This document shows positions 6,874 through 24,063 of a stretch of DNA of 34,724 nt, one piece after another. The stretch's first letter is position 1; each line of letters begins with the position of its first letter. Made by a program: the position numbers and the translations under genes. This DNA is from Nitrososphaeraceae archaeon. Its GTDB lineage: Archaea > Thermoproteota > Nitrososphaeria > Nitrososphaerales > Nitrososphaeraceae. Location: NCBI GenBank assembly GCA_016782225.1, contig JADDOW010000071.1:7119-41842 (forward strand), given 5' to 3'. A model generated the notes under the pieces. The model did no database searches. It saw nothing but the letters and a program-made list of their open reading frames with translations, and was not told where the DNA came from.

Positions 6874-7005
6874 GGGGTCGTAGCGAAGCCTGGAATCGCA
6901 ACGGGCTCCAGATCATATAATGGGCAATTATAGAAGAAACCCGTGGATCAGGGGTTCAAATAATATGTCTTTGCAAACATATTAGAACAAATCCCTTCGG
7001 CCCCA
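6874..7005 (+). tRNA. tRNA-Trp(CCA) with two introns (37/38 and T loop)
   Basis: The acceptor stem pairs 6874-6880 (GGGGTCG) with 6998-7004 (CGGCCCC), and A7005 is the discriminator. The D stem is GCG/CGC, and the anticodon stem ACGGG/CCCGT encloses CT-CCA-GA with the anticodon at 6908-6910. A 27-base intron (about 6912-6938) lies after position 37, the canonical site. A second intron of 31 bases (about 6960-6990) interrupts the T loop. Removing both leaves a 74-base tRNA with T stem AGGGG/CCCTT and loop TTCAAAT. The T-loop intron forms an ideal bulge-helix-bulge: exon GTTC pairs with intron GAAC, flanked by two AAA bulges and an 8-bp intron stem TAATATGT/ACATATTA. CCA is not encoded. Confidence 0.93.
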
Positions 7006-14491: not shown

Positions 14492-14639
14492 TGAAAAATC
14501 AGCGCTAAGTTACTTTATAAATATTTTGAAGGTTAATAAAAAAAACTATATTAATATCTTAATTATTTATTAAAGTACATAATTACAAAAGTGAAATAAA
14601 AATACATATACCAAATGCTTGCTACAAAAATTTTATATT

Positions 14640-15452
14640 ATGACTTTTTCCATTTTAGACGTTATTAATGCCCAAAAAGAATTAAACAAATTTCGCCTAA
14701 ATAACAGTACAAATCATGAAAGATTTATTTTTCCGTTTCTTTGCGGTTCATATTTTACCTACAGAAAAATTGACGTCATAAGAATATTCGCAATAGCCAA
14801 AACAATATCAGAAAACCCAACATATTTAGATGTCGGATGCGGTTATGGTGACTTTTTAGAAAAAATTAGGGAATACATACCTAACGCAGAAGGTATTGAG
14901 AAAAGTGCAGAAATATTTTACAGTATAGGAAAAGCTAAGCCTGAATATATAAAAATTGCTGATGCATATAACGGCATTGACAAAAAATATGACATAATAT
15001 TCGTTGGATGGATGGAACCGGGGGTTGACTACAGAGACCAAATATCTGAATCTGCAAAATGCATAATTACAACTTTTGATAAAGGCGGACAATGTGGAAT
15101 AAATGGAGGTTGTGAGTTTGACGGTCATGGTTTTGACAAGATAGCAAGCTGGGTTACACCTTCATGGATTGACGTAAATACAGAGTTAATGAATAAATAC
15201 TATACAAACAACATAAAAGCTGAAAAAATTCAGGAGTTGAGACGTCTAAGAGGTGCCCATAACCTATGGTATGTGTACTGTAGACCAGAATTAAAAAACA
15301 TGCTAAAAATAGCTCTAGAAGAATTGAAAAGTAAAAACATCAAAGAAAAATACAAACATGAAGAAATTTTAGACGAATGTGGTTTTGCTCTTAATGAATC
15401 CCTTCCACTAAATCCGGATCTTTATTTATGGAAAATAAAAATTGAAGACTAA
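14640..15452 (+). CDS. SAM-dependent methyltransferase, copy 1 of a tandem pair
   Basis: The 270-residue protein has a class I methyltransferase core with motif I YLDVGCGYG at residues 62-70 and DIIFVGWMEPG around 118-128. The substrate is unknown. ATG at 14640 aligns with the start of the downstream paralogue, and a TTG at 14619 would add seven residues. The central part, 14710-15076, is identical base for base to 15528-15894 in the second copy, while the N-terminal 23 residues and much of the C-terminal third differ. A further conserved block, RGAHNLWYVYCRPELK, follows. The two genes are separated by two bases and must be co-transcribed. A TATA-like ATACATATA lies at 14602-14610. Confidence 0.85.
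   Translation: MTFSILDVINAQKELNKFRLNNSTNHERFIFPFLCGSYFTYRKIDVIRIFAIAKTISENPTYLDVGCGYGDFLEKIREYIPNAEGIEKSAEIFYSIGKAKPEYIKIADAYNGIDKKYDIIFVGWMEPGVDYRDQISESAKCIITTFDKGGQCGINGGCEFDGHGFDKIASWVTPSWIDVNTELMNKYYTNNIKAEKIQELRRLRGAHNLWYVYCRPELKNMLKIALEELKSKNIKEKYKHEEILDECGFALNESLPLNPDLYLWKIKIED
14710..15076 (+). repeat. 367-bp identical block, copy 1 (gene conversion tract)
   Basis: Every base matches 15528-15894 at an offset of 818. Divergence begins abruptly at both ends (first mismatches 14709/15527 and 15077/15895). The identity includes silent codon positions. Confidence 0.92.
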
Positions 15453-15454
15453 AA

Positions 15455-16279
15455 ATGCCACCACAAATTAATGATATCAATAAAGCGTTGGATGCTCTAA
15501 ATAAATTTAGAGAATACACTATTTCACCAAATCATGAAAGATTTATTTTTCCGTTTCTTTGCGGTTCATATTTTACCTACAGAAAAATTGACGTCATAAG
15601 AATATTCGCAATAGCCAAAACAATATCAGAAAACCCAACATATTTAGATGTCGGATGCGGTTATGGTGACTTTTTAGAAAAAATTAGGGAATACATACCT
15701 AACGCAGAAGGTATTGAGAAAAGTGCAGAAATATTTTACAGTATAGGAAAAGCTAAGCCTGAATATATAAAAATTGCTGATGCATATAACGGCATTGACA
15801 AAAAATATGACATAATATTCGTTGGATGGATGGAACCGGGGGTTGACTACAGAGACCAAATATCTGAATCTGCAAAATGCATAATTACAACTTTAGATCA
15901 AGGATTAAGTCTTGCTGCAGAGTTTGACGGTCATGGTTTTGACAAGATAGCAAGCTGGGTTACCCCTTCATGGGAAGATATCAATATTGAAATAACAAAT
16001 AGATATTATTCCAAAATACCAAATGAACTAATTCAAAAACTTGCAGATCTAAGAGGTGCCCATAACCTATGGTATGTGTACTGTAGACCAGAATTAAAAA
16101 AGAGAATAAAGAATGCTTTAAAATTGTGTCTAGCAGAAGAATTAGAAAAAAGATATGAAAAATATGAGTTTGAAACTGTATTGGACAATGCCGGTTACAA
16201 ATATTTTGAAAGGCTTAAGAATCCGTTCACAAAATACAAATTATGGGATCCTGTTTTTGATTTTGACACAAAGACTTAA
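15455..16279 (+). CDS. SAM-dependent methyltransferase, copy 2 of a tandem pair
   Basis: The 274-residue paralogue has motif I at residues 63-71 and the same DIIFVGWMEPG and RGAHNLWYVYCRPELK blocks as copy 1. Its N-terminus (MPPQINDINKALDAL) and its last 55 residues are clearly different from copy 1. It also lacks the Gly/Cys-rich insertion of copy 1 (FDKGGQCGINGGCEFD), having LDQGLSLAAEFD instead. The start ATG lies three bases after the stop of copy 1. Divergent ends around an identical core suggest specialised substrates with a homogenised cofactor domain. The reaction is not identifiable from sequence. Confidence 0.85.
   Translation: MPPQINDINKALDALNKFREYTISPNHERFIFPFLCGSYFTYRKIDVIRIFAIAKTISENPTYLDVGCGYGDFLEKIREYIPNAEGIEKSAEIFYSIGKAKPEYIKIADAYNGIDKKYDIIFVGWMEPGVDYRDQISESAKCIITTLDQGLSLAAEFDGHGFDKIASWVTPSWEDINIEITNRYYSKIPNELIQKLADLRGAHNLWYVYCRPELKKRIKNALKLCLAEELEKRYEKYEFETVLDNAGYKYFERLKNPFTKYKLWDPVFDFDTKT
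15528..15894 (+). repeat. 367-bp identical block, copy 2 (gene conversion tract)
   Basis: Partner of 14710-15076, identical throughout. A second shorter near-identical patch at about 15921-15970 (one mismatch) and a third near 16051-16100 also match copy 1, which gives the pair a mosaic look. Confidence 0.92.
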
Positions 16280-22339: not shown

Positions 22340-23713
22340 ATGAATAATCATGAGAGCAACATAGAGGAGGAAAATAAAATTCTTCATATAGGATTCGATG
22401 ACACCGATTCAACTAACGGAAGGTGTACCACTCATTTGGCATACCTACTTACAAATACTCTACTAAAAAAATTTAAAGTAAATTTCATTGACTTTCCTTT
22501 GTTAATTCGATTGAATCCCAACATTCCTCTTAAAACTAGAGGAAATGGGGCAGTTTGTTTAAGAATAAAAGGTAAAAGATATGATGAAATTAAAGAAGAG
22601 GCAAAATGTTTTATAGAAAATTACTCGGATATAGGAAACGGTGCAAATCCGGGTTTAGCTTTTTATGAAGAAAACAGCATTGCCAACGATATAATCTCTT
22701 TAAGTAATAATGCAATGGATACTGTATTAAGCAAACAGCTGGCTGAAAAAACTGCAAAAAAAAATAGCATACAATATCACCTTTTTGGAAAAGGGCATGG
22801 ATTGGTAGGAGCATTAGCAGCAATTGGTTGCTGTCTTGATACCGATCATACTTATGAGACAATTGCATACAGAAAAAAAGAGAATATTGGGACAATAAGA
22901 AAAATAGATAAATCCAAGGTTAAAAAAATAAGCGACGAATCATTTCCAAACACATTTAATAATTTTGATCATAGAAAAAAAAGAGTTTTAATTGCTCCGC
23001 ATGGCCCAGATCCAGTTTTTTGTGGAATCCGCGGAGAAGATCCATTAACCACTACAAAATTCATGGAGAATCTGCAAATAGACGAGGATTTGGATGGATA
23101 CATGGCATTTAGATCAAATCAGGGAACAAATTTGCATTTAACTAAAGAAAGAAGACTATCAAGGATACTGCCTTTTACATCAGGTCATATCAATTGCCAA
23201 TTAATTACAAAACCTAATGTCATCAATGGTGGGCATGTAATTTTTTACGTAAAGGATAATTTCAACGATATCTTACCTGTTGCAGTTTATGAACCCACAC
23301 GGTTAACCAAAATCGCGGCCTCATTAGAAATAGATGATAAAATTGAAATAGGATATGGAGCACATATTAAATCGAATAAAAGAACCCTAAATCTAGAGTA
23401 TCTAATTATAAAAGAGTTAAAAGAAATAACATATTTTAAAAACCCCATATGCGAAAAATGCAACAAGAATATGAAATCGGAAGGAAGAAACAAAGGGTTC
23501 CAATGCCCATTATGCAAAACCAAAAAAAACAATGAGCCTAAAACAGTAATAAAAAAAGACAGAGGATTGATTTGTGGTGGTTTATATGTTCCTGATCCCA
23601 TAGCCCACAGACACCTCACAAAACCGCATTTTAGATATAATAAAGAGAAAAAATATGATGAAAAACAGATTTTATACTTGTTAAATATTACGCAATGGGC
23701 CTCAAAAAAATAG
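22340..23713 (+). CDS. tiaS: tRNA(Ile2) 2-agmatinylcytidine synthetase (TiaS)
   Basis: The 457-residue protein is TiaS, which makes agmatidine at C34 of the CAU-anticodon tRNA-Ile so that it reads AUA. The N-terminal kinase-like domain shows IGFDDTDSTNGRCTTHLA at residues 17-34, and the middle carries the YHLFGKGHGLVGALAA and PDPVFCGIRGEDP segments. The C-terminus has an OB-like region and a zinc ribbon, CEKCNKNM...CPLC. The stop codon TAG occupies 23711-23713, so its last three bases overlap the 3' end of the convergent tRNA-iMet gene. The ATG at 22340 is the first in frame and gives a short polar extension before the conserved start. Confidence 0.93.
   Translation: MNNHESNIEEENKILHIGFDDTDSTNGRCTTHLAYLLTNTLLKKFKVNFIDFPLLIRLNPNIPLKTRGNGAVCLRIKGKRYDEIKEEAKCFIENYSDIGNGANPGLAFYEENSIANDIISLSNNAMDTVLSKQLAEKTAKKNSIQYHLFGKGHGLVGALAAIGCCLDTDHTYETIAYRKKENIGTIRKIDKSKVKKISDESFPNTFNNFDHRKKRVLIAPHGPDPVFCGIRGEDPLTTTKFMENLQIDEDLDGYMAFRSNQGTNLHLTKERRLSRILPFTSGHINCQLITKPNVINGGHVIFYVKDNFNDILPVAVYEPTRLTKIAASLEIDDKIEIGYGAHIKSNKRTLNLEYLIIKELKEITYFKNPICEKCNKNMKSEGRNKGFQCPLCKTKKNNEPKTVIKKDRGLICGGLYVPDPIAHRHLTKPHFRYNKEKKYDEKQILYLLNITQWASKK
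23704..23710 (-). terminator. Oligo-T terminator of tRNA-iMet, inside tiaS
   Basis: On the minus strand a run of seven T residues begins directly after the tRNA discriminator base. On the plus strand the same bases are the last Lys codons of tiaS. Confidence 0.5.
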
Positions 23714-23833
23714 CGGGGAGTTGATTTGAACTTACGGCTGGCCGTTTTATCAAAGCACAGAAACCGCTCTGCGGGTTATGAGCCCGCCGGGATAACCTAG
23801 CCCCCTATTAAGGTCTGGCTTCCCCACCCCGCT
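23711..23833 (-). tRNA. Initiator tRNA-Met(CAT) with two non-canonical introns
   Basis: The acceptor stem AGCGGGG/CCCCGCT has the A1-U72 pair, and the anticodon stem GCGGG/CCCGC gives three consecutive G-C pairs next to the loop CT-CAT-AA. Both are initiator hallmarks. The anticodon is at 23778-23780. Neither intron is at 37/38. An 18-base insertion (about 23797-23814) splits the D loop between G18 and G19: exon AGCC pairs with intron GGCT, with bulges AGA and AGG. A 30-base insertion (about 23732-23761) splits the 5' strand of the T stem after position 52. Removing both leaves 75 bases with D stem GGGA/TCCC and T stem GGTTG/CAACT. The second intron's exact edges are tentative. Confidence 0.88.
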
Positions 23834-23945
23834 AATTAATAGTTGTAATATCGGGATTATATATATGATGACACATTTTCAATTTTAAAAAACAACATAA
23901 AAAAAATTGCGGCAGTTATAAGCAAATGAGAAGAGATATTTTAGA

Positions 23946-24063
23946 TGCGGGAGATGGGATTTGAACCCATGAACCCCTAAGAGATGAGGTATCCCAATCG
24001 TCCTGGTTTCTGAGCTTCATGTATTTATATCTCACGCCTTTGACCAGGCTTGGCAACTCCCGC
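23946..24063 (-). tRNA. tRNA-Leu(CAG) with two introns in the anticodon arm
   Basis: The acceptor stem is GCGGGAG/CTCCCGC, D stem GCC/GGC and T stem ATGGG/CCCAT with loop TTCAAAT. A 14-base variable arm marks a type II tRNA. The anticodon CAG is at 24010-24012 in the loop CTCAGAA. A perfect anticodon stem TGAGG/CCTCA is formed only if two insertions are removed: 15 bases (about 24016-24030) between positions 30 and 31, and 18 bases (about 23991-24008) at the canonical 37/38 site. The mature form is 85 bases. The first intron's bulge-helix-bulge is not obvious, so its excision is inferred from the pairing. Confidence 0.85.

Follow-up and report, generated by a model that had tools for sequence, protein, structure and literature searches.

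Does an initiator tRNA gene that is interrupted twice still supply the cell with a working initiator, and do its introns place a special control on translation? Both questions are raised by a locus in a stretch of 34,724 nucleotides, referred to here as the window, from the genome of a soil ammonia-oxidising archaeon. The MCM protein encoded in the window shares 93-99% identity with proteins from the closest assemblies, which belong to Candidatus Nitrosocosmicus and Nitrososphaeraceae. Our analysis indicates, with a probability of roughly 0.95, that the locus is the functional and sole initiator tRNA-Met gene of a Candidatus Nitrosocosmicus species and that its precursor is cut by an (alpha-beta)2 splicing endonuclease and joined by the ligase RtcB. 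The gene is real and conserved, is very probably functional, and belongs to an already known class, that of archaeal tRNA genes with multiple noncanonical introns.

The tRNA-Met(CAU) precursor is encoded on the minus strand at 23711-23833 and is 123 nt long including A73, with A1 at 23833, position 72 at 23712 and A73 at 23711. Exon 1 (23815-23833, minus strand, 19 nt) supplies tRNA positions 1-18 and is identical to exon 1 of the intron-free initiator genes L011 and L014. Intron 1 (23797-23814, minus strand, 18 nt) lies in the D loop between G18 and G19 and is followed by exon 2 (23762-23796, minus strand, 35 nt), which covers positions 19-52 and carries the anticodon CAU at 23778-23780. Intron 2 (23732-23761, minus strand, 30 nt) interrupts the T stem between positions 52 and 53, and exon 3 (23711-23731, minus strand, 21 nt including A73) completes positions 53-73. 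The mature sequence bears the hallmarks of an initiator, namely an A1-U72 pair, the CAU anticodon and, at the base of its stem, three G-C pairs (GGGCUCAUAACCC). An earlier note on this DNA had described an initiator tRNA-Met with an 18-base insertion in the D loop, a 30-base insertion in the T stem and no canonical intron, and this description holds in full: the junctions fall at 18/19 and 52/53, and the anticodon loop CUCAUAA is continuous, with nothing inserted at 37/38. The gene is neither split nor permuted, as all exons lie in order inside the 123 nt. Upstream, a TATA-like element (ATATATATAAT, 23856-23866, minus strand), recognized by sequence resemblance, spans -33 to -23 of the gene, and a similar AT-rich box precedes the initiator gene in the relatives inspected. 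On the plus strand, convergent with the tRNA gene, is an ORF (22340-23713) resembling the tRNA-Ile2 agmatidine synthetase TiaS, with a score of 318 bits that is under the NCBIfam cut-off of 600; its stop codon (23711-23713) coincides with the last three bases of the initiator tRNA.

Computed removal of both introns yields a normal tRNA, a perfect cloverleaf that ARAGORN calls tRNA-Met(CAT) with a score of 121.2. The spliced sequence equals the intron-free initiator tRNAs of L011 and L014, from two genomes of the same order, across the acceptor, D and anticodon arms, and departs from them within the T stem and at a few positions. Across the window, neither ARAGORN nor the Rfam tRNA model calls the unspliced gene. 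ARAGORN miscalls a tRNA-Ser when only intron 2 is taken out, and reports no tRNA when only intron 1 is. Standard tools can consequently miss or misname the initiator tRNA in such genomes, which is a hazard for annotation.

Folding the precursor with a BHB model, a check that the earlier note had proposed, gives a full motif at both introns, each with 3-nt bulges on opposite strands and four of four pairs in the 4-bp central helix. At the junctions of intron 1 (AGCCAG|ACCTTAATAGGGGGCTAG|GTTA), the AGCC/GGCU helix suggested in that note turns out to be the central helix, flanked by the bulges AGA and AGG and continued by the inner helix CCUU/AGGG. The note had called the T-stem intron less regular, a view that does not survive closer inspection: at its junctions (GCGGTT|TCTGTGCTTTGATAAAACGGCCAGCCGTAA|GTTC) the 4-bp central helix is GCGG/CCGU, its two 3-nt bulges read UUU and AAG, and CUG/CAG forms the inner helix, so that this intron is no less regular than intron 1; the pairing is kept in relatives. 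Among the registers that yield the same mature tRNA, only one per intron forms the full motif; shifting intron 1 by one or two bases leaves the mature tRNA unchanged and destroys the motif, while intron 2 has no alternative register that gives the same mature tRNA. Shuffling the intron letters reaches the motif in about 0.05% of trials for intron 1 and about 0.25% for intron 2.

The inner helices are also maintained among relatives, in an alignment whose junction placement drew on BHB quality. Inner pairs 1-3 of the 18/19 intron are formed in 28, 26 and 23 of 28 distinct introns (21.1, 14.9 and 12.6 after shuffling), and inner pairs 1-4 of the 52/53 intron in 30, 28, 30 and 19 of 30 (28.2, 21.5, 21.3 and 12.7 after shuffling); these shuffle statistics ignore the kinship of the sequences, but the introns are nonetheless diverse in sequence and in length (13-25 nt at 18/19, 21-34 nt at 52/53). 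The pair types vary on both sides of the inner helix (CG, TA, AT, GC), which amounts to compensatory change. For some relatives the aligner's placement was set aside in favour of the BHB geometry, which moves the T-stem intron of L030, L102 and L103 from 51/52 to 52/53, the T-loop intron of L038 from 56/57 to about 59/60, and one intron of L116 and L117 from 50/51 to 45/46.

Is this the only initiator tRNA gene of the organism? The whole assembly has a single occurrence of the initiator anticodon arm, BLAST with the spliced tRNA matches only the three exons of the 23711-23833 gene, and no second initiator is present among the tRNA-model matches inspected. The search for another initiator tRNA that the earlier note had called for thus came back empty; the single-copy statement covers the assembled contigs (118 contigs, 99.8% complete), and a gap could hold a second gene. 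L131, a second CAU tRNA that lacks introns and differs in its anticodon stem, is taken as the elongator tRNA-Met. Another tRNA-model match, L159 (G000:C91:38272-38391), is weak at 33 bits, has no tRNA parse and is probably a false match or a remnant.

The two-intron architecture is widely shared. Both introns are found at the same sites in 15 of the 15 Candidatus Nitrosocosmicus genomes examined, with the same architecture in Candidatus Nitrosocosmicus sp. SS (L080) and other named records, and within the family 47 of 70 genomes, from 10 of 12 genera, match the two-intron pattern. When 20 other family genomes were read fully, 17 had both introns, one had introns at 18/19 and 59/60, one only at 52/53 and one only a T-loop intron. 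Across the order, where 20 genomes were read, the initiator gene has anything from no intron (2 genomes) to three (6 genomes), distributed over five sites (18/19, 37/38, 45/46, 52/53 and 59/60). Of 300 genomes sampled across the class, 155 fit the pattern with an 18/19 insertion, 74 fit that of an uninterrupted D arm and the rest match neither. Genus g36 holds both D-loop states (G133 with the intron, G135 without), and the D-loop intron has been lost in genus g12. The range from zero to three introns at five sites, together with both D-loop states in one genus, implies that the introns are dispensable in evolution. The intron sites of the initiator gene are often gained, lost or exchanged, and they therefore offer a natural series for the birth and disappearance of tRNA introns; in abundant ammonia-oxidising archaea, two to four exons commonly have to be joined to make even the only initiator tRNA. 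In L038, L017 and L037 (G032, G016 and G025), the family's T-stem intron accompanies a U52-A62 pair and the T-loop intron a G52-C62 pair, a split by intron type that is seen even inside genus g12 and hints that the 3' part of the gene was replaced, and not that an intron was simply lost.

These comparisons bear on other ways of explaining the locus. The silence of the standard gene finders might suggest a decayed pseudogene, with an intact initiator tRNA elsewhere. We rejected this reading, which we regard as extremely unlikely given that the 99.8%-complete genome contains no other copy, that the exons are nearly invariant across the family, that the whole genus shares the architecture and that the introns carry compensatory changes. 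The remaining alternatives accept a functional gene and ask why its introns persist. The earlier note had seen in the double interruption a gate on all translation initiation, and one could suppose that the two introns were selected as a checkpoint, the rate of splicing setting the supply of initiator and thereby tuning global initiation. That an essential gene present in one copy retains both of them throughout the genus, and in most of the family, would fit such a role. However, the frequent change of intron state among relatives, which vary freely between zero and three introns at five sites, with both D-loop states in g36 and loss in g12, weakens the idea, as does the abundance of introns in the other tRNAs of the genome: roughly one in two of those examined is interrupted, so that the initiator is not singled out. 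Disrupted initiator genes had, moreover, already been published for Nanoarchaeum and Thermofilum (PMC3218864), which also speaks against a special status. We consider selection as a checkpoint very unlikely.

It is somewhat less improbable, though still unlikely, that the T-arm introns persist because they disrupt the site in the 3' part of tRNA genes to which integrating elements attach. Thaumarchaeal elements use this part in nearly all cases involving a tRNA (PMC6563490), and most initiator genes of the family have an intron in the T stem or T loop. On the other hand, 10 of 39 such integrations hit tRNA genes that contain introns (PMC6563490), many members of the order lack a T-arm intron, and the D-loop intron is left unexplained.

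The reading of the locus as a functional, spliced initiator gene is in keeping with the processing enzymes encoded in the genome. There are two proteins of the splicing-endonuclease family, and a gene for the ligase RtcB is present. The alpha protein matches crenarchaeal catalytic subunits over its full length (the Aeropyrum alpha subunit end to end) and keeps the Tyr/His/Lys triad; its Lys37 aligns with Aeropyrum position 44 (K44), the lysine of the Crenarchaea-specific loop that has been linked to broad endonuclease specificity (PMC6379350). The beta protein is without the catalytic His, as expected for what would be the structural subunit. By sequence, the pair has the features of a broad-specificity (alpha-beta)2 endonuclease, that is, one catalytic subunit, one non-catalytic subunit and the loop lysine, and would presumably assemble as a heterotetramer.

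We propose that the gene, probably with a TATA-type promoter of its own, is transcribed into a two-intron precursor, and that in the folded precursor the end of intron 1 would pair with AGCC of exon 1, and that of intron 2 with GCGG of exon 2. The (alpha-beta)2 endonuclease would recognise each BHB and cleave every 3-base bulge on the 3' side of its second base. Ligation of the exons by RtcB would then re-form the G18-G19 dinucleotide and the T stem, which would let the D and T loops meet. The two motifs do not overlap, and the order in which the introns are removed may therefore be free. We infer, on sound grounds, that splicing is required for the function of this initiator tRNA.

Multiple noncanonical introns, up to three per gene, are established for archaeal tRNAs (PMC4033280, PMC4390854, PMC3218864), and 107 noncanonical tRNA introns have been counted in Thaumarchaeota (PMC8450103). 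The multi-intron tRNAs of Thermoproteales, Thaumarchaeota and Caldiarchaeum resemble the present gene in having short introns in the D arm, the T arm and elsewhere, as many as three in one gene, together with BHB motifs and a two-subunit endonuclease (PMC4033280, PMC4390854, PMC8450103, PMC3293823). Unlike those, the present gene is an initiator whose introns lie at 18/19 and 52/53, while 37/38 is uninterrupted. Initiator genes are also disrupted and rebuilt through BHB splicing in Nanoarchaeum equitans, where the gene is split at 37/38, and in Thermofilum pendens, where it is permuted at 59/60 with a 37/38 intron (PMC3218864); the gene described here instead has ordered exons, one transcript and two cis introns. 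Other families of the order share the widespread 18/19 intron and also have introns at 37/38, 45/46, 52/53 and 59/60, but in other combinations of up to three, and most have the 37/38 intron that is absent in Nitrososphaeraceae. Within the part of the literature covered, we found no report on initiator tRNA introns in Nitrosocosmicus, Nitrososphaera or Nitrososphaeraceae; the gene may well be catalogued already in tRNA databases.

Interrupted tRNA genes are common in this genome, with introns in about half of roughly 37 tRNA loci examined, an approximate figure for which eight loci were read by eye. A possible intron donor, in the form of another tRNA with an 18/19 or 52/53 intron, was not found among the parsed loci of the same genome. 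In the window, tRNA-Trp(CCA) (6874-7005, plus strand) appears doubly interrupted as well: one intron, of about 27 nt, is at 37/38, and the other, of about 31 nt, is in the T loop and has a BHB of four out of four central pairs and eight inner pairs. Just upstream of the initiator gene, tRNA-Leu(CAG) (23946-24063, minus strand) has two introns, one of 15 nt within the anticodon stem and one of 18 nt at 37/38; ARAGORN gives tRNA-Leu(cag) when it is spliced and miscalls the unspliced gene as Ile when run with its intron option. Elsewhere in the window, two adjacent methyltransferase-like ORFs (14619-15452 and 15455-16279, plus strand) share a long, near-identical middle and differ at their ends, a pattern that would fit recent duplication in tandem or gene conversion.
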